This document shows positions 2,890 to 57,214 of a stretch of DNA of 64,000 bases, in pieces. Each line of letters starts with the position of its first letter. Within the stretch, counting starts at the first letter, position 1. Source of the DNA: Pelobates cultripes (taxonomy: Eukaryota > Chordata > Amphibia > Anura > Pelobatidae); NCBI GenBank assembly GCA_933207985.1, contig OW240913.1, forward strand, positions 361,487,488 through 361,551,487, written 5' to 3'. Below the pieces are notes generated by a model. The model had not been told where the DNA came from. It saw nothing but the letters and a program-made list of their open reading frames with translations, and ran no database searches. A program made the position numbers and the translations under genes.

Positions 2890-4491
2890 TTGAAAATACA
2901 AAAAGTCAACTTAGCACTGATCATGCAGAAGCAAAAGAAAACAGAAAAATCCGTTCCTGGGACGAAGAAAATGGAAGCAGGAGCGGCTGGGGTGAGTAAG
3001 GGTTCCCAGGCTCGCTCCCCTGCTTCCAAACCCGCCTCGCGGCTTGTTTCGCCGCTTAAACTTTCGTTGGTGGCGTCGGGGAAATCCCTCCCTACCTCCC
3101 TCCCGGTCTCCCTCCCCAAAACTTATGCTTGTGCGGCCGCGACCCGTCCGCAGCTTCCTGAGGGCGGCGGGACCGCGACCGCACTAGCCGGCACTCCTGT
3201 GTGCGGCTCAGAGTGCTCCGAGCACTCGGCATGCTCGGAGCACAGTGCTGTGTCTCCCGCGAGCGGCAAGGACCTCCCTGCAAGCCGCTCGCGGTCTCAC
3301 TCCAGGGCAGCCCGGTCGCTCACTTACAAAAGCGACCGGGTTGCTAGTAAAGGGGAGGGCAGTGCGAGGTCACGCTCCCCGTCGGGATCCTCAGCCTCCA
3401 GGCTGTCGGTCCCGGCGGGGGGGGCCTCTGCTGTCCGACCCAAAGTATTTAAAGGGGCAGCAAGGGCTACAGTAAGCCCAGATGAAAATCTTATGGAAAT
3501 AGGGGCTGAAGTGCTCCAAAAAAGTGCCTTCTCTGCACTACCACAGAGAACACGTTATGTTGCCACAACAAAGATGGCTGACAGTCCAGATACTGTATTT
3601 TCCACTTCCAAGATGGCCGCTGCCACCTCCAATATGGCTACTACCACATTTAAAGCTGCGACCTATAATCCTAATATGCCACTTGAATTGGCAGCAGACC
3701 TGCCACCGTCAGCTGGCATGATAATTCAACTTATTAAAGATTTGAGAGTTGATTTGAAAAATGACTTTAAAAATGACTTTGACACATTATATGGAGCCAT
3801 GGAGGGCATTAATCAGCGTACAGAAATAATAGAGAATAAATTGCATTCTCAAGAGCAATCTCATCTGGATTTGGTTGAAACCGTAAAAGAGCTCCAAAAG
3901 CAAGTGCACCAACAAGCAGAAAAGCTTGCCGACGCTGAAGATAGAAGTAGGCGTAATAACCTAAGGATCAGGGGGATCCCTGATAATATCGACTCCCAGG
4001 AATTACAAAGCTATTTCCAGACAATGGTGAAGTCAGCTCTTCCAAACGCAAAAAATACGGATTTATTACTGGATCGCATCCACAGATTGCCCAAACCCGG
4101 CAATGCTCCTCCAGCTGCACCCAAAGACGTGATAGTGAGATTCCACTACTATCACATTAAAGAAGAATTTCTAGGTGCAGTACGCACGTCAGGTCTCACA
4201 GGAGATTACAGCAGCATGAAGGTCTTTCAAGACTTTTCTGCTCAAACAATGAAGCGACGCAGGGAATTTCAACTTTTCACTGCGGAGCTAAGAAGAAGAG
4301 GGATAAGATATAGATGGGGATTCCCGGTTAAAGTCCTTTTCCGCATGGATGGTCGGAATTTTATAGTCACGTCGCCTGAAGAAGGAATGGAACTCATCAA
4401 TACTATGAATGGACGTCGGGTTTCGCCTCATAGACTCTCGCCATCTACTCCTGTTCAGGCCAGCAAGAGAAGCAAATCAGACACTTCCTGA
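2890..4491 (+). CDS. LINE ORF1 protein (L1-type RNA-binding chaperone), 533 aa
   Basis: In L1 elements this protein trimerises, coats the element RNA in cis and acts as a nucleic-acid chaperone. Residues 1-200 are basic and rich in Ser, Pro and Arg, encoded by a CpG-rich stretch (about 3,000-3,430) unlike the AT-rich surroundings. A coiled-coil region runs from about residue 270 to 350. At 350-361 comes DAEDRSRRNNLRIRGIP, the classic join between the coil and the RRM. The RRM runs to about 450, and the C-terminal domain (RRRGIRYRWGFPV and following) covers about 467-507. The frame is open throughout. The ATG at 2,890 is the first in this frame. Length exceeds human ORF1p (338 aa) because of the long N-terminal region. 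Confidence 0.92.
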   Translation: MKIQKVNLALIMQKQKKTEKSVPGTKKMEAGAAGVSKGSQARSPASKPASRLVSPLKLSLVASGKSLPTSLPVSLPKTYACAAATRPQLPEGGGTATALAGTPVCGSECSEHSACSEHSAVSPASGKDLPASRSRSHSRAARSLTYKSDRVASKGEGSARSRSPSGSSASRLSVPAGGASAVRPKVFKGAARATVSPDENLMEIGAEVLQKSAFSALPQRTRYVATTKMADSPDTVFSTSKMAAATSNMATTTFKAATYNPNMPLELAADLPPSAGMIIQLIKDLRVDLKNDFKNDFDTLYGAMEGINQRTEIIENKLHSQEQSHLDLVETVKELQKQVHQQAEKLADAEDRSRRNNLRIRGIPDNIDSQELQSYFQTMVKSALPNAKNTDLLLDRIHRLPKPGNAPPAAPKDVIVRFHYYHIKEEFLGAVRTSGLTGDYSSMKVFQDFSAQTMKRRREFQLFTAELRRRGIRYRWGFPVKVLFRMDGRNFIVTSPEEGMELINTMNGRRVSPHRLSPSTPVQASKRSKSDTS

Positions 4492-5309
4492 GATCCCAGC
4501 TCAAAGAGACATAGTCTTCCTTTTCTATGGTCATCATCGAGTCCTGCTCCAGTCCGCCGATTTATCGGGATTACTTTGAATATTGATCTGTTTCTCCTTT
4601 TTATGACAGACTTCTGAGTTCTTCCACTAACGGTTATTTGTCCTGTGCCTTTTTCGGTTTATTTTAGAAACTGATCCTTCTATTTAAAACTTTCTATACT
4701 TATACAATCAAAATATTTTTTTATTTTTTTTATATATAATTTCATATTTATTTAATTTTATTATTTTTTTATTTTATTTTATATATTTTTTTTTTTTTAA
4801 TTGTTCTGTGCTTTTTACCCTTTCAATTGTCATATTTAAAAAGTTGCTTTTTGTTTTTTTACTACCTACATTAGCTCCCCCTGCACCCAGTAGCCTTCTC
4901 TCCCCCCAACCTGGGCCTAACACCCTGAGATGGAGAAACTTTTTTTGTTCTCCCTCATGGCCCTCTTTCACTGTTTTTGTTTCACCCCTGATAGGGGTAT
5001 ATATCCAAGTTTTTTGTTCCCCTTTTTTATTTTTTTATATTTTTTGTCCATTCATCATTTAAAGTTCAGTAGAAATGTTTTTAGACCACGAAACACTGCA
5101 ATGCTTCATACAAAAATGCATAATACGTGGCATCAGCAAATTGTAATCATCTGTTTACTCATTATTCCTGTACACACAAGCACACAGCTTGAGTTTGCTT
5201 TAATAGCTTTGTTGGACTTGCATGTTTCTCTCTTGGAAGGTGGTGGCTGGGACTCTCACAAGATTGAATGTTCCTTTACCCTGTATCAGTTATTACTGTT
5301 CTATAAACC
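4492..5309 (+). other. Long T-rich spacer between LINE ORF1 and ORF2
   Basis: The 818-bp spacer is very T-rich, especially 4,700-4,800 and 5,020-5,060. Open frames within it (4,808-5,062; 4,930-5,319) show no domain and are probably chance. Such a gap is much longer than the roughly 60 bp in human L1, so ORF2 would need internal entry, reinitiation or a separate transcript. Confidence 0.6.
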
Positions 5310-8300
5310 ATGGTCTTAAAATATATGTCATTTAATGTGAGAGGCCTGAACACCGCCCACAAGAGACGATTATTATTCAAAGAAGCAAAATCCAACGAAT
5401 CAGATGTGATTTGTGTACAGGAAACACATTTTAAAGATGATAAAGACCATAAAATCATGTCAAAGCTTTTCCCAGTTCAATACCATTGCACTTATAAATC
5501 CAAGTCTAGAGGTACTTCGATTTTTTTTTCACAGGAATGTAGCATGCTTGACAAACAAAGTTATAACGGACGATGACGGGAGGTATTTAATATGGATAGG
5601 ATCACTCAATACTATTGAATATACTATTGTGAACATGTATTTTCCAAACACCGGTCAGTTGCAGTTTTTTAGGAAATTGATGGACTTAGTGAATGAGAAT
5701 GTGAGAGGCAACTTGGTAATGTGTGGTGACACGAATTTTGTGATGGATGGAGAGTTGGATAACGCTAGGGAAGACCGTGATCGACAGCTTAGAGGGGACA
5801 GTGACAGATTAGCGTATAAATGCTCCAGATATATGATTGAATGTGGCTTATACGATCCTTGGAGACTGTTGCATGAGAATGAAAGAGATTTTACGTATTA
5901 TTCTGTCTCTAAAAATATGTATTCCAGGCTGGACCGGTTTATGGTCCAGGGTGCTTTAATTCCTCACATCTTGAAATCTGATATCTTAAACATTAACTGG
6001 TCCGACCATGCTCCAATCATAATGCATATTGACGAAATTGTTTCATCAGCCCCTAACAGAACTTGGAAATTAGGTGATTATTTGTTAAATGATGTTGTGA
6101 ATAAGTCACTGACGGAGAAAGCTTTGTGTGATTATTTTTCGGAGAATGCCTCGCCCGAGGTTCCTGGCGAGGTGACTTGGAATGCGCATAAGGCTGTGTT
6201 AAGAGGTCATTTTATTTCTAGAGCGTCTTACTTGAAGAGAATTAATAGCAATAATTTAAGAACATTGGAAAAAGAACTGTATAATTTGAACCAAGCTAAT
6301 AAATTTGGTCCATCGTCCTCCCTATCAGCAATGATAGGAGAAATTAAGGCTAAAATCAACAAAATTAATTTAGATCGTACATCTCTTATGGTGAGACGTC
6401 TCAGGAAAACATTTTACTTAAAAGGTAACAGGGCCTCAACTCTTTTGGCATCCAAACTCCGGCATGTGAATGCCCAATCAAAAATAGCATATTTAATTGA
6501 TGATCAGGGGCAAAAAGTGTTTCATCCAACTAAAATTAGTGATATGTTCGCAGAGTATTATAGTAAACTTTATAATTTAGAATGTAATTTGGACCTCCCC
6601 CAGCCTTCTACAACAATAATTGATAAATTCTTAGACAGAGTGTCATTGCCTCGGCTGTCTCCAGTACATTTAGAAAGCTTAGAATGTGAAATATCAGCAG
6701 CAGAGATAGCTGAGGCAATTAAACTTATGCCATCTGGAAAAGCCCCTGGTCCCGACGGATTAACTATTTTATATTATAAAACTTTTCCAGAAATTTTAAT
6801 TCCCCATATGACTAAATTGTTCAATTCCTATAAGTCAGAGGGAAAGATGCCAGAGGAGTCCTTGTGCGCACGAATAGTCACTTTGCCAAAGCCGGGAAAA
6901 ACTCCTGATAGATGCCCTAACTTTAGGCCCATTTCTCTGATTAATAATGATTCAAAGATTTATTCTAAGGTTCTCGCTAATAGATTAACCAAACTAATCC
7001 CATTGTTAATTAATAAAGATCAAGTAGGTTTTGTGCAGAATAGACAGGCGCCAGACGGAACTAGAAGATTTATAAACTTGATTCAGCACATCAATATGAC
7101 CAAAACGCCTTCTTTGCTTCTATCTCTAGACGCAGAAAAAGCGTTTGACAGGATACATTGGGGATATTTATGGAGAACATTAGATAGGTTCAACATACCA
7201 TCATCATTTATCACAGCAATTAAGGCGTTATATTGCGCACCCTCCGCCCATGTCTCAGCTTCTGGCTTCACATCCAAAACTTTTTCCCTAACCAACGGGA
7301 CGAGACAGGGGTGCCCTTTATCTCCAATTTTGTTTGTTTTAGCGATAGAACCCCTGGCAGAACTGATTAGGACAACCCCACAAATTGTAGGAATTGCGGT
7401 TAAAGAATCCGTTCACAAAATTGGTTTGTTTGCAGATGATATAATCCTAGCTATTAAAAACCCAAAAGAATCTTTGAGACACCTCAAGGATATTTTAACT
7501 CAATTCGGTGAGATATCGTATTACAAATTAAATGAGTCCAAAACTCAAGCCCTTCCGTTTCATTTAAACAATTTGGAAACCATTGCCCTTAAGAAATCAT
7601 ATTTATTTGATTGGAGAACTGATTATATGGAATATCTTGGCATTAATTTATGCAAAAATTTGGTTAATATGCACAATCACAACCTGAGGAAAGCATGGTC
7701 AGACCTACAAAAAGAGATGGAGAGATGGGGTGGGATGGAGCTTTCATGGCTGGGGAGGGTCGCATCTATTAAAATGACGATACTCCCAAAAATTTTATAT
7801 TTTTTTAGGACCATTCCTCTGTCCATTCCATTATCATTTTTTAATAAAGTTCATTCGACGATGTTGAAATTTATATGGGGGAACAAGCCTGCCCGAGTGA
7901 GGCTCACTTCCCTGCAGCACCATAAATCGAACGGCGGTATCGGTGTCCCCGATATCCGCAAATATTATTTCGCCACTAACGCTGCAGTGGTTGTGAGCTT
8001 TAACAACCAGGATGATAAACCCAGATGGATGGAGATAGAGGAATCAAAAATTTCACCGGTTAGGCTATTAGAATTACCTTGGTTAAATCCCAAGAAAAGA
8101 CCTGGAATTACAAAATTATTTTTATCCACCAGGACTACGCTTAAGGCCTGGGACATTGTTTTTAAAAACGACCAGTCTCCCAGATTATATAGAGCAATGC
8201 CTATTGAATTATTGAAAGATCATATACCATCCTTAAAAATAGAATTATTAAAGGATTGCTCTATAACTAATCTGGACAATTTTTTCTATGGCAATGCTAT

Positions 8301-9117
8301 TCTTTCTTTGGAAAAATTGAAGCTTAAGTATGGATTGTCAAATGCATGTGAACTGGAATGTATGATAATCATTGATAAATTGAAAGAACTATACCAGGTA
8401 CCTGAAACAGATAAAAACTATAAATCACTTGAGATATCTCCTTTAGAGAAAGTTATTTTATACAGCCCCGCTAGTAAAGGTATTATATCCTTATGTTACT
8501 TATCTCATAATGCCAAGCCCTTAGTTAAATTAAAACATATGCTGTCATGGGAGACGGAGTTGGGTGCCCAGTACGATTTAGTAGAATGGTTCGGTTTCTT
8601 TACAGGTTTGAAAGGCATTTCGTACTGCACCGACCATTTTGAAAATCATTATAAAATCTTATATCGCTGGTACCTGGCTCCGTCTAGATTACATAACATG
8701 AACAATATGTATTCTGACCGGTGTTGGAGAGACTGTGGGGGAGTGGGCAATATGGCTCATATCTGGTGGTTTTGCCCCAAGTTAATTAATTATTGGAAAA
8801 TGATCCACGATCTGATTATTAAAGTGAACGGAACCATTAGTATCTTAACCTCGGAACTAGCCTTATTTAAAAAACTCCCGGAGTCTGTTAATAGATCAGA
8901 TAAAATAATCATAGGCCACATTCTGATCGCTGCTACATCCTGTTTACCTAGACATTGGAAGTCTCAAAATGTGCCATCTCTCAGAGAAGTTTTTAATTTG
9001 ATTTTAGAAAATAAGGCACATGAACTATCACACAGAGCCAATATGCATGGTTTCCCAATACTAAAATACAACTGGGATAAATGGGAAGAAAAAATCAAAA
9101 CAGTTTATGGTCTTTGA
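5310..9117 (+). pseudogene. LINE ORF2 protein: endonuclease and reverse transcriptase, one frameshift
   Basis: ORF2p nicks the target and primes reverse transcription there. Reading starts at ATG 5,310 with SFNVRGLN and the catalytic Glu of QETH (5,418-5,429). This frame ends at 5,576; the rest of the protein is in another frame, open from before 5,413 to 9,117. The shift lies between about 5,515 and 5,565, where a T-run at about 5,521-5,530 is a likely slippage site. Downstream motifs: GDTN (5,725-5,736), SDHAPI (6,001-6,018), GKAPGPDGL (6,736-6,762), SLDAEKAFDRI (around 7,129), GTRQGCPLSP (around 7,300-7,326) and the RT active site FADD (7,429-7,440). A CX3CX7HX4C zinc-knuckle-like motif starts at Cys 8,722-8,724 and ends at Cys 8,773-8,775. 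Total length, about 1,269 codons, equals the usual L1 ORF2. Apart from the shift I see no stop. Confidence 0.92.
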
Positions 9118-20544: not shown

Positions 20545-20890
20545 ACCTGCCTGGAAGAAGGGCTGCAGAGGAATAGGCAGAGGGGACTATACCTGCCTGG
20601 AAGAAGGACTGCAGAGGAATAGGCAGATGGGAAGATACCTGCCTGGAAGGAAAGCTGCAGAGGAATAGGCAGAGGGGACTCTACCTGCCTGGAAGAAGGG
20701 CTGCAGAGGAATAGGCAGAGGGGACTATACCTGCCTGGAAGAAGGACTGCAGAGGAATAGGCAGAGGGGACGATACCTGCCTGGAAGGAAAGCTGCAGAG
20801 TAATAGGCAGAGGGGACGATACCTGCCTGAAACGATAGCTGCAGAGGAATAGGCAGAGGGGATGATACCTGCCTGGAAGGAGAGCTGTAG
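20545..20890. repeat. 46-bp tandem repeat, eight copies
   Basis: CTGGAAG-type unit starts fall at 20,551, 20,597, 20,643, 20,689, 20,735, 20,781, 20,827 and 20,873, exactly 46 bp apart. Each unit includes GCTGCAGAGGAATAGGCAG. It lies between the two inverted arms. An 82-codon minus-strand open frame over it is a by-product. Confidence 0.92.
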
Positions 20891-31085: not shown

Positions 31086-31363
31086 AAAGGGGCCAAATGC
31101 CATTTTGGCCCTTTTATATATTTTGAATCTGGACTGCCTGTATGGGTGGGACCAGTCTGATATGCTTAAGATATGTTCTCTCTGTAATGGCACAAGATGA
31201 GCAAAAACCAGCTTGAGAACTGAGTGGTTACCCACCGAAGGGCAGGCTATTTCAGTTGCTGCCCGTTCTCAGTATTCTCTTGTGACCCATTTTTTTTGCT
31301 CTCCACAAGTTTAAAGGGATAATCCAGATGTGGACCCCTTGCTCACGGTGCCTAGGGAGATAT

Positions 31364-31420
31364 CAGCTATGCCTCACTGATGATGCCTAACAAGGCTGAA
31401 ACGATCATCTGGGGTTGCTG
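31364..31420 (+). ncRNA. Type I hammerhead ribozyme, unit 1
   Basis: A self-cleaving RNA motif. Core box CTGATGA is at 31,377-31,383 and GAAA at 31,398-31,401. Stem II is GCC (31,385-31,387) with GGC (31,394-31,396) around the loop TAACAA; the closing 10.1-11.1 position is a T-T mismatch. Stem III is the near-palindrome ACGATCAT (31,401-31,408) with one C-A mismatch. Predicted cleavage follows C31,409, giving an AUC triplet. Stem I pairs GCCTCA (31,371-31,376) with TGGGGT (31,410-31,415), has a TAT/T internal loop, then pairs CAGC (31,364-31,367) with GCTG (31,417-31,420). All universally conserved core bases are present. Confidence 0.82.
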
Positions 31421-31693
31421 TGTCTCTTGTGCAGAGAGAACTTGCTGGCATTTCGGATCTGGACTGCCAGTATGAGTGGGACCAGTCTGATATGCTTCAG
31501 AGATGTTCTCTCTGTAATGGCACAAAATGAGCAGAAACCAGCTTGAGATCTGAGCGGGGACCCACTGAAGGGCAGGCTATTTCAGCTGCTGTCCATTCTC
31601 AGTATTCTCTTGTGACCCATTTTTTTTGCTCTCCACAAGTTTTAAAGGGTAATCCAGACGTGGACCTCTTGCTCACGGTGCCTAGGGAGATAT

Positions 31694-31750
31694 CAGCTAT
31701 GCCTGACTGATGATGCCTAACAAGGCTGAAACGATCGTTTTGGGTTGCTG
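31694..31750 (+). ncRNA. Type I hammerhead ribozyme, unit 2
   Basis: Box CTGATGA is at 31,707-31,713 and GAAA at 31,728-31,731, with the same GCC-TAACAA-GGC stem II. Stem III ACGATCGT (31,731-31,738) is a perfect palindrome, so it can pair between two molecules as in other type I motifs with minimal stem III. Predicted cleavage follows T31,739, a permitted GUU triplet. Stem I GCCTGA (31,701-31,706) pairs with TTGGGT (31,740-31,745): both sides differ from unit 1 at pair 1.2/2.2 (G-C there, U-G here) and pairing is kept. Distal CAGC (31,694-31,697) pairs with GCTG (31,747-31,750). Confidence 0.82.
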
Positions 31751-31965
31751 TGTCTCTTGTGCAGAGGGGACTTGCTGGCATTTTGGATCTGGACTGCCAG
31801 TATGGGTGGGACCAGTCTGATATGTTTCAGAGATGTTCTCTCTGTAATGGCACAAGATGAGCAAAAAACCAGCTTGAGAACTGAGCGGGGACCCACTGAA
31901 GGGCAGGCTATTTCAGCTGCTGCCCGTTCTTAGTATTCTCTTGCGACCCATTTTTTTTGCTCTCC

Positions 31966-32698
31966 AGTTTTTTTGTACTTAAACTACTACTCTACCGGCT
32001 AACTCTTCAAAATATTAATACTCTGCTCCTTAATTGGTAAATACAATAATGAAGCCTCTCACATCAAGCATTGGTGGACTTATTGGGTTTCATATTTGGG
32101 GCAATCTGTATTTGTGTTTTGAGTTATTTTCACACACTCTGTAATATTTTGGAAACTGTTGTGATTTTTTTTTTAACCTTGTGTGTTTATGAATGGTTAT
32201 CCCTTCCATTTTACTGTTGGTTTATCCACTCCCATTTTTTTATCCTATATTTCAATTGTTTTATAATTGTTATATTTTTGTTTAAACATGTTTTAAAATA
32301 TTTAAAATATGTTTTAAAAATGTGATCAATATAAATAATTTGAAAAGAATGTGTCTGAACGCCCTAAGAAACCTTTAAAAAGCACTGTAGGTTTAAAAAT
32401 AAATATAGTAATTGTCTCTTTATTGTCTTAAATTTGCCCCCCACCCCTTTCAAAACTGAAAAAAAATGCAAAAAAGTTGCCATAAATCTTTCTGTAATTT
32501 CACATAGTAGTCCTTGCCAAGGCTCTGTCTGCTCCTGGCTCTGTCTGATCCTTGATCATCTTTGTCCAATCCAATGCTTTATATGAATATAGTTGTTTTG
32601 GTGGTTAGAGTACCTATCTTGATAAATGTCCCTGTTCTGGCAGCTTTGGTTTGTTGATGGATTAAGATATAAATTGCTCTCCTTCTGTGGACTATATG
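31966..32698. other. No recognisable feature
   Basis: T-rich, then mixed sequence up to the Tc1-type element. No gene or repeat recognised. Confidence 0.3.
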
Positions 32699-32997: not shown

Positions 32998-34045
32998 ATG
33001 TCACAGATGTCTCAGGTTTTGAGGGAGCGTGGAATTGGCATGCTGACTGCAGGAATGTCCACCAGAGCTGTTGCCCGTGAATTTGAATGTTCATTTCTCT
33101 ATCATGAGCCGTCTCCAAAGGCGTTTCAGAGAATTTGGCACTACATCCAACCAGCCTCACAACCGCAGACCACGTGTAACTACACCAGCCCAGGACCTCC
33201 ACATCCAGCATCTTCACCTCCAAGATCGTCAGAGAACAGCCACCCGGACAGCTGCTGCAACAATCGGTTTGCATAACCAAAGAATTTCTGCACAAACTGT
33301 CAGAAACCGTCTCAGGGAAGCTCATCTGCATGCTCGTCGTCCTCATCAGGGTCTCGACCTGACTGCAGTTCATCATTTTAACCGACTTGAGTGGGCAAAT
33401 GCTCACATTCGATGGTGTCTGGCACTTTGGAGAGGTGTTCTCTTCATGGATGAATCCCGGTTTTCAATGTACAGGGCAGATGGCAGACAGCGTGTATGAC
33501 GTTGTGTGGGTGAGCGGTTTGCTAATGTCAATGTTGTGGATCGAGTGGCCCATGGTGGGGTTATGGTATGGGCAGGCATATATCATGGACAACGAACACA
33601 GGTGCATTTTATTGATGGCATTTTGAATGAACAGAGATACCGTGACGAGATCTTGAGGCCCATTGTTGTACCATTCATCCACAACCATCACCTCATGTTG
33701 CAGCATGATAATTCACAGCCCCATGTTGCAAGGATCTGTACACAATTCCTGGAAGTTGAAAACATGCCAGTTCTTGCATGGCCAGCATACTTACCGGACA
33801 TGTCACCCATTGAACTAAAAACACAAAAACCAATGTGTGAGCGCTATAAAATCTAATACAGATAGTATGGCAGCGCTCAAAATTACAATGCACAAAAAAT
33901 GTGTAAAGAAAGACAATAGTTACCAAAAAAAGAGCGCTAAATTAATCTGTAAATATGTCACCCATTGAGCATGTTTGGGATGCTCTGGATCGACGTATAT
34001 GACAGCGCGTTCCAGGTCCTGCCAATATCCAGCAACTTCGCACAG
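32998..34045 (+). pseudogene. Tc1-type DD34E transposase pseudogene
   Basis: The intact enzyme binds the inverted repeats with paired helix-turn-helix motifs and cuts and pastes the element. The start (MSQMSQVLRERG) at 32,998 is in one frame; from about 33,083 the HTH and catalytic domain continue in another frame, so there is a frameshift near 33,079-33,083. A TGA at 33,497-33,499 interrupts the catalytic domain after RADGRQRV. The three catalytic residues are recognisable: D (33,449-33,451, in MDESRF), D (33,707-33,709, in QHDN) and E (33,812-33,814, in SPIE), the last two 34 residues apart. The E codon lies at the edge of the 141-bp insertion. Homology ends near 34,043, so the last part is deleted. 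Confidence 0.92.
33814..33954. mobile_element. 141-bp insertion in the transposase gene
   Basis: Flanked by the 14-bp duplication ATGTCACCCATTGA (33,800-33,813 and 33,955-33,968). The insert is A-rich, codes nothing and contains three AGCGCT motifs. A duplication of this length suggests target-primed insertion of a short retroposon rather than a TA, TTAA or 8-bp DNA-transposon event. The family was not identified. Confidence 0.7.
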
Positions 34046-55552: not shown

Positions 55553-55662
55553 TTCCCAAGTGTCCCTAGTTAGGAGGGACAGTCCCTATTTTGGCTCCAA
55601 ATCCATTGATCCCTCTTTTCTATCCTAAGGTTCCTATTTTCTAGGAGCTGCATATTGTTGGT
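55553..55662 (+). mobile_element. Left end of a second GCATACCTCCCAA-family MITE
   Basis: CATACTTCCCAAGTGTCCCTA and what follows matches 10,804-10,922 closely through TTTCTAGGAGCT, then continues GTGTCTGAGTGTATAACAG across the point where the hAT-type element sits in the other copy. The right end of this MITE is not seen; the sequence turns into the 48-bp array. Confidence 0.8.
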
Positions 55663-57214
55663 GTGTCTGAGTGTATAACAGATGTTCACAGCAATAATAC
55701 TCCCAGTAATGTGTCTGAGTGTATAACAGAACTCCACAGCAATAATACTCCCAGTAATGTGTCTGAGTGTATAACAGAGCTCCACAGCAATAATACTCCC
55801 AGCAATGTGTCTGAGTGTATAACAGAGCTCCACAGCAATAATACTCCCAGTAATGTGTCTGAGTGTATAACAGAGATCCACAGCAATAATACTCCCAGTA
55901 ATGTGTCTGAGTGTATAACAGAGCTCCCCAGCAATAATACTCCCAGTAATGTGTGTGAGTGTATAACAGATGTTCACAGCAATAATTCTCCCAGTAATGT
56001 GTCTGAGTGTATAACAGAGCTCCACAGCAATAATACTCCCAGTAATGTGTCTGAGTGTATAACAGAGCTCCACAGCAATAATACTCCCAGTAATGTGTCT
56101 GAGTGTATAACAGAGCTCCACAGCAATAATACTCCCAGTAATGTGTCTGAGTGTATAACAGAGCTCCACAGCAATAATACTCCCAGTAATGTGTCTGAGT
56201 GTATAACAGAGCTCCACAGCAATAATACTCCCAGTAATGTGTCTTAGTGTATAACAGAGCTCCACAGCAATAATACTCCCAGTAATGTGTCTGAGTGTAT
56301 AACAGAGCTCCACAGCAATAATACTCCCAGTAATGTGTCTGAGTGTATAACAGAGCTCCACAGCAATAATACTCCCAGTAATGTGTCTGAGTGTATAACA
56401 GAGCTCCACAGCAATAATACTCCCAGTAATGTGTCTGAGTGTATAACAGAGCTCCACAGCAATAATACTCCCAGTAATGTGTCTGAGTGTATAACAGAGC
56501 TCCACAGCAATAATACTCCCAGTAATGTGTCTTAGTGTATAACAGAACTCCACAGCAATAATACTCCCAGTAATGTGTCTGAGTGTATAACAGAGCTCCA
56601 CAGCAATAATACTCCCAGTAATGAGTCTGAGTGTATAACAGAACTCCACAGCAATAATACTCCCAGTAATGTGTGTGAGTGTATAACAGAGCTCCACAGC
56701 AATAATACTCCCAGTAATGTGTCTGAGTGTATAACAGAGCTCCACAGCAATAATACTCCCAGTAATGTGTCTGAGTGTATAACAGAGCTCCACAGCAATA
56801 ATACTCCCAGTAATGTGTCTGAGTGTATAACAGAGCTCCACAGCAATAATACTCCCAGTAATGTGTCTGAGTGTATAACAGAGCTCCACAGCAATAATAC
56901 TCCCAGTAATGTGTCTGAGTGTATAACAGAGCTCCACAGCAATAATTCTCCTAGTAACGTGTCTGAATGTATAACAGAGCTCCACAGCAATAATACTCCC
57001 AGTAACGTGTCTGAGTGTATAACAGAGCTCCACAGCAATAACACTCCCAGTCATGTGTCTGAGTGTATAACAGAGCTCCACAGCAATAATACTCCCAGTA
57101 ATGTGTGTGAGTGTATAACAGAGCTCCACAGCAATAATATTCCCAGTAATGTGTCTGAGTGTATAACAGAGCTCCACAGCAATAATACTCCCAGTAATGT
57201 CTCTGAGTGTATAA
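55663..57214. repeat. 48-bp minisatellite, 32 units plus a partial unit
   Basis: Unit starts GTGTCTGAG are spaced exactly 48 bp from 55,663 to 57,199, with no indel. Typical unit content: GAGTGTATAACAGAGCTCC, ACAGCAATAATACTCCC, AGTAAT. Because 48 is a multiple of three and most frames lack stops, the array gives open frames on both strands: up to 590 codons on the minus strand with a 16-residue period, and 16-residue SECITELHSNNTPSNV-type repeats on the plus strand. These are not evidence of a gene. The unit seed is in the MITE itself (compare 12,741-12,775). Confidence 0.97.

Follow-up and report, generated by a model that had tools for sequence, protein, structure and literature searches.

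The window, a stretch of 64,000 bp from the Pelobates cultripes genome, harbors a tandem array at positions 31120–31966 (period 330, 2.6 copies, 92% matches, score 1480 in Tandem Repeats Finder), and both of its ends were recovered identically when the unit was used as a BLAST query. A preliminary description of this DNA had placed the tandem repeat at 31128–31965; the array is real, while those ends fall 8 and 1 bases short. The array comprises the following features.

31120–31966, plus strand: retrozyme insertion of 2.6 head-to-tail units, 5′ end at about unit position 41, 3′ end at the fixed 3′ site of the family
31120–31409, plus strand: unit 1, 5′-truncated, with its end at the predicted cleavage site, diverging by 5.8% from the family majority unit
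31410–31739, plus strand: unit 2, complete, 330 bp, 7.3% from the family majority unit
31740–31966, plus strand: unit 3, 3′ part only, 7.9% from the family majority unit
31357–31426, plus strand: type I hammerhead 1, core CTGATGA at 31377, predicted cleavage after 31409, with U-U at 10.1/11.1 and a C-A mismatch in stem III (descriptor and pairing layout of the family unit)
31687–31756, plus strand: type I hammerhead 2, core CTGATGA at 31707, predicted cleavage after 31739, with U-U at 10.1/11.1, stem III paired and G-U at 1.2/2.2 (descriptor)
31279–31305, plus strand: 3′-end motif, internal copy in unit 1, putative reverse-transcription start (sequence and 3′-end position in the family)
31609–31635, plus strand: 3′-end motif, internal copy in unit 2, putative reverse-transcription start (sequence and 3′-end position in the family)
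31940–31966, plus strand: 3′-end motif, terminal copy, 3′ boundary of the insertion (sequence, BLAST ends and 3′ ends in the family)

A hammerhead descriptor, which was composed after the motif had been seen and tolerates a mismatch at 10.1/11.1, matched the two array hammerheads and nothing else on both strands of the window, and gave no match in 60 dinucleotide shuffles. The scan agrees with the cleavage predicted earlier after 31409 and 31739, 330 apart, from which release and circularization of a 330-nt RNA would be possible, and the bipartite stem I and palindromic stem III that had been described are present in the sequence and pairing layout of the family unit. Both hammerheads had been called complete, which is true of unit 2, whereas the C-A mismatch in unit 1 leaves a single stem III pair compared to three in unit 2. 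The base of stem II (10.1/11.1) is a U-U mismatch in both units. The proposed check against Rfam returned no match to any family in the window at the gathering score; at a lax threshold, unit 2 alone matched a hammerhead family, HH9 (31692–31758, 14.9 bits compared to a gathering score of 52, E 2.2), and a better-preserved family copy reached 18.7 bits with HH9, which is also below 52. Selection on pair 1.2/2.2, as argued from the change on both sides of this pair in unit 2, found no support: the double change results in a G-U pair, each of the two changes occurs in one of 147 full units of a set that includes unit 2, and the double change is a private event that provides no evidence of selection. 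No stop-to-stop frame of at least 110 aa lies within 31120–31966, and hence no reverse transcriptase or GIY-YIG endonuclease of a Penelope-like element (PLE).

The window units differ from the family majority unit by 5.8–7.9%, and within their overlapping parts 8 of these differences are common to all overlapping units and 31 are not, on which grounds we regard the window copy as older. It is one divergent, old and 5′-truncated member of a dispersed retrozyme family. It also looks decayed, since stem III of unit 1 is broken and a comparison of its flanks for exact direct repeats found no target-site duplication. A palindrome (AAAGGGGCCAAA...TTTTGGCCCTTTT) at 31086–31116 lies directly left of the array. 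Elsewhere in the window, two long open frames at 2890–9117 on the plus strand (533 and 1,235 aa from stop to stop) presumably belong to a Tx1/L1-like LINE, and frames at 33047–33856 are what we take to be pieces of a Tc1/mariner-like transposase. There are two further tandem repeats, one of 46 bp at 20545–20887 (7.4 copies, with a 138-bp higher-order period) and one of 48 bp at 55662–57214 (32.4 copies, 96% matches), the latter with several open frames, as its period is divisible by 3.

Across the genome, the hammerhead-core pattern occurs 3,284 times at no more than two mismatches, and the same pattern read backwards, which served as control, does not occur at all. A search of the 3.09-Gb genome with the unit yielded at least 109 matches on many chromosomes, with 40 of 5,489 candidate places scored. 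From these matches we drew 40 loci (L001 and L009–L047), a set that favors copies resembling that of the window over a long stretch, and added eight further loci (L075–L082) from the core-pattern list on one chromosome. The 147 full units of the 40 loci gave a majority unit of 328 bp, to which they are identical with a median of 98.8% (range 82.6–100%); the unit length of 330 given in the preliminary description is therefore the period of the window array and not that of the family. The units fall into subfamilies A and B. The idea that B arms occur only as second arms of an insertion was rejected, as the B end motif has 1,211 copies and the subfamily also exists apart. The array of locus L023 (383–1947) is split by about 1.5 kb of other sequence, perhaps a later insertion.

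The hammerhead is less variable than the remainder of the unit, with 1.87 compared to 3.53 non-consensus units per site (p 0.002), and this difference persists when subfamily sites are left out (1.24 compared to 1.98, p 0.005). Within the core, variation is highest at position 7 (16 of 147 units), at which hammerheads are described to tolerate any base (PMC3088659). The junction between repeat units is precise at the predicted cleavage site, with no variants at position 1 and two in 147 at position 328. The monomer is predicted to be strongly self-paired (z −5.5, 0 of 100 shuffles). In the ribozyme region, the predicted ribozyme fold (−19.5 kcal/mol) competes with a minimum-energy fold of −32.8 kcal/mol, so that on energy alone another fold is preferred. 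The axolotl ribozyme HHR_Amex2, whose published features the majority unit displays, is reported to cleave to 22% within an hour as a monomer and much better as a dimer (PMC7229834).

The family copies have fixed 3′ ends, which lie at unit positions 209–229 in 63 of 75 arms, where an even spread would place about 5; the 5′ ends are variable. Exact direct repeats of 10–16 bp flank 23 of the 39 testable loci (threshold 10 bp) compared to 0.5% of 1,142 mismatched flank pairs, although two of the 23, L011 and L022, sit in simple repeats. Repeats of 14 and 15 bp are found at larger offsets in L042 and L047. Among the eight extra loci, counted without a mismatched control, direct repeats of 11–16 bp flank L077, L080, L081 and L082 and one of 9 bp flanks L078, L079 is cut by the end of the stretch, and no flanking direct repeat was found at L075 and L076. 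In 13 of the 40 loci, two arrays stand head to head such that both outer ends are the 3′ site, and the arms mostly join with a few bases of overlap or gap; L020 and L031 carry a short inverted piece of the 3′ end, and L080 of the extra set is two-armed. Judged by sequence, the copies thus show the marks of retrotransposition, namely a fixed 3′ end, flanking duplications and head-to-head loci. The identification as a retrozyme is upheld by the dispersal of the family, its type I hammerhead, the fixed insertion ends, the target-site duplications and the strongly self-paired monomer. With respect to the published hallmarks of metazoan non-LTR retrozymes, the hammerhead is of type I by sequence and pairing, the array is free of coding frames of at least 110 aa, the unit length of 328–330 bp lies within 170–400 nt and the duplications (10–16 bp at 23 of 39 loci) are longer than 4 bp, while the G+C content, expected below 45–50%, is 47.9% in the window array and 50.6% in the majority unit.

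The 5′ ends were tallied for 60 of the 75 arms. Omitted were 15 arms: fragments (L016, L024, L035), the first piece of L023, ends at N runs (L030, L039 and both of L046), two arms of L041 and four of L043 that are rearranged or unclear, and the piece of L079 cut by the stretch end. An origin of the 5′ ends at the hammerhead cut was not upheld, as 3 of 60 ends lie within positions 325–330 compared to 1.1 expected, which is not a clear excess; ends near the cleavage site are those of L034 (position 1) and of L021 and L035 (327). In ranges picked post hoc, the 5′ ends cluster at positions 186–216 (17 of 60, 5.7 expected) and 23–48 (15 of 60, 4.8 expected). Six insertions (L014, L016, L017, L040, L047 and L077) consist of two or three whole units plus about 17–29 bp and start at unit positions 196–210, resulting in a short direct terminal repeat, and three of the six begin exactly at position 196. 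Our guess is that such pile-ups and the starts at position 196 stem from stalling of the enzyme at a strong helix or hairpin. Termination of RNA polymerase III at a T-run was set aside since many copies extend past the T-run into CTCTC.

The current view is that retrozymes of animals are mobilized as RNA circles, with the help of an unnamed element. In the published model, an array results when the reverse transcriptase makes several rounds on a monomeric circle as template, in which case no mixed arms would arise at insertion. Three linked sites of the unit form haplotypes (TCG in 54 of the 147 units, CTG in 38, TCT in 34 and others in 21), and at least two of the three main haplotypes are combined in 16 of the 38 arms that contain two or more full units and in 13 of the 18 with three or more. 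B units are moreover interspersed with A units in L020, L029 and L045. One A arm is paired with one B arm in 7 of the 13 head-to-head loci (L011, L013, L022, L024, L025 and L044 as assigned by script, L042 by eye), and A stands on both sides in the other 6 (one arm of L026 judged by eye); the short arms of L020 and L031 are B-like by eye. Since 16 of 38 arms are mixed and 7 of 13 loci have unlike arms, many insertions did not derive from one monomeric circle, and since arms of different subfamilies cannot be explained by the fold-back of one copy, two RNAs took part in such insertions. Dimeric circles are ill-suited as well, as the order of units looks irregular.

Several observations nevertheless speak for a circle. 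The other 22 of the 38 arms show no mixture of the main haplotypes and fit it equally well, no difference at the subtype sites is apparent within either arm of L024, and the units join precisely at the cleavage site. When 24 sites were considered, 133 of 906 arm-sites were mixed compared to 300 (sd 19) for units dealt randomly, and the units within an arm are accordingly related, not identical. Retrozyme circles are also abundant in axolotl, mussel and coral (PMC7229834). Part of the unit mixing could be mimicked by later gene conversion. Distances between units have a median of 0.027 within arms and 0.018 between loci and are thus not smaller within arms; as the within-arm value is swayed by L020, which accounts for 91 of 304 pairs, we based the conclusion on the haplotypes. 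Rare variants in the same order across loci, considered as a sign of a common linear template, were not convincing. Taken together, we regard it as doubtful that the monomeric circle is the template from which the arrays of this family are made.

The enzyme that inserts the copies could be supplied by a LINE, for example of the Tx1/L1-like type, acting through target-primed reverse transcription with twin priming. LINE copies, too, can be fixed at the 3′ end, truncated or partly inverted at the 5′ end and flanked by duplications of 10–16 bp, and the two long frames at 2890–9117 look LINE-like. In LINE twin priming, however, the inverted part is not known to end at the 3′ end of the RNA, whereas 13 of 40 retrozyme loci have one and the same site at both outer ends, and there is no poly(A) or LINE tail among the listed retrozyme ends. 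We hence consider mobilization by a LINE unlikely. That the family is plain satellite DNA with a fossil hammerhead, spread by unequal crossing-over, is highly improbable, since the tandem structure and a unit length near that of newt satellite 2 are outweighed by arrays that are short, dispersed, fixed at one end and flanked by target-site duplications, by the presence of close copies on many chromosomes and by a ribozyme that varies less than the remaining unit.

PLEs were considered as helpers on the basis of their own insertions. The genome contains PLE-like genes, as shown by at least 24 matches to the GIY-YIG endonuclease (150 of 2,774 candidates scored). In one of them, L048, a minimal hammerhead motif lies upstream of a long frame, which we take to be the reverse transcriptase although GIY-YIG was the one domain matched, and a GIY-YIG endonuclease frame follows. 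Copies of the 5′ part of L048 often end near query position 541 (519–558) or at 659–691 (40 of 907 candidates scored). In all seven two-armed PLE insertions picked from the list (L055–L068), one arm ends near query position 541 and the other near 673–686, so that the two target strands seem to use two different start sites. All seven are flanked by direct repeats of 9–15 bp (median 14; counted without a mismatched control and with the interiors unread). The median duplication length is 14 in retrozyme and PLE alike, and the AT content of the duplications is 77% and 73%, respectively, when the two retrozyme loci in simple repeats are excluded and 21 of the 23 are used. The purified PLE protein of Anolis is described to cut and extend both strands, starting internally at two adjacent sites (PMC11167929), and in rotifers, Penelope copies are described as being arranged both as direct and as inverted, head-to-head repeats accompanied by short duplications (PMC3846280). 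What the retrozyme copies have in common with such insertions, that is, both strands primed at an internal site, head-to-head arms and duplications, is confined to architecture.

Insertions of the PLEs in this genome resemble those of the retrozyme in architecture and in the length of their duplications, which makes a PLE the prime candidate for the helper of the family. No sequence common to the retrozyme end and the PLE ends was found. The motif CCCATTTT at one PLE end was rejected as a common motif (shuffle p 0.26), as scores just as high are reached in 179 of the 1,060 windows into which the PLE stretch was divided. A second PLE family compared to the retrozyme end likewise gave nothing, in a weak test whose query lay partly in an inverted arm, and when the majority unit was compared with seven GIY-YIG loci by BLAST, the matches were short throughout (E at least 1.4). 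As no common sequence was found and the PLE has a separate end site for each arm whereas the arms of the retrozyme end in the same region, the helper is one that we infer.

The explanation that we judge to be the probable one combines transcription of multimers, PLE-type insertion at a fixed site and copying of mixed templates. The units of genomic arrays would be transcribed as multimers, part of which the type I hammerhead would cut. A PLE-type reverse transcriptase/endonuclease may then make two cuts in an AT-rich target, one per strand and about 14 bp apart, in line with the duplications observed, and would begin copying at the fixed internal site about 215–225 nt downstream of the hammerhead cleavage site. 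Often both cut strands would act as primers, giving rise to two head-to-head arrays with the same outer end that join in the middle, which is the architecture found. In many insertions the RNA template may have been a multimer of mixed units, or several RNAs copied in succession, and the two arms may derive from different RNAs. A more specific form of this scheme, for and against which we see about equal grounds, is that a PLE enzyme uses each cut strand as the primer on a separate retrozyme RNA, beginning at one fixed site, with the arrays copied from mixed multimers that are in part uncut or by switching between RNAs, and that monomeric circles are by-products and not the usual template.

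The family bears on the questions of helper and template, as its insertion anatomy is PLE-like and its mixed-unit arrays do not fit one monomeric circle. It also bears on the self-priming that has been put forward for inverted Penelope copies (PMC3846280), since the arms of a folded-back copy are expected to be alike and arms of different subfamilies occur here. The titles and abstract openings of the open-licence papers surveyed describe no retrozyme with this insertion anatomy or a mixed-unit test.

We finally compared the family to known systems. PLEs, including L048, resemble it in the type I hammerhead, fixed internal ends, head-to-head copies and duplications with a median of 14 bp; they differ in that they encode an enzyme, which the retrozyme does not, and in that L048 has a minimal hammerhead and arms ending at two sites. 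Interspersed repeats with hammerheads were described in 2011 for Xenopus tropicalis, and an ancestral amphibian element was suggested as the source of two conserved vertebrate hammerheads (PMC3088659). Those repeats are likewise interspersed, amphibian and equipped with a hammerhead, and the nearest Rfam family here is HH9; by the description given, that study discarded matches with a mispair next to the core, such as the window family has (PMC3088659). Newt satellite 2 with its ribozyme HHR_Amex1 has a unit of about 330 bp and a type I hammerhead. The label satellite 2-like is apt for the unit length, in which the family agrees with newt satellite 2 and axolotl Rtz_331, but not for the ribozyme, which is of the HHR_Amex2 type, nor for the loci examined, which are short dispersed insertions. 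In the descriptions compared, HHR_Amex1 has a 1-bp stem III and U-U is given for Amex2 only (PMC7229834), and the majority unit does not show a 1-bp stem III without U-U. Axolotl Rtz_353 carries HHR_Amex2, which by its description is of type I, has a stem III of 2 bp capped by a 4-nt loop and shows U-U at the stem II base, as in the majority unit, and its units are tandem, dispersed and non-coding (PMC7229834); it differs in a unit of about 350 bp compared to 328–330 and in a number of about 60,000 compared to 3,284 cores at the stringency used here. Since the ribozyme carries these published HHR_Amex2 features, we classify the family, on its sequence features, as a non-LTR, non-autonomous retrozyme, which is ordinary as a locus and useful as a family.
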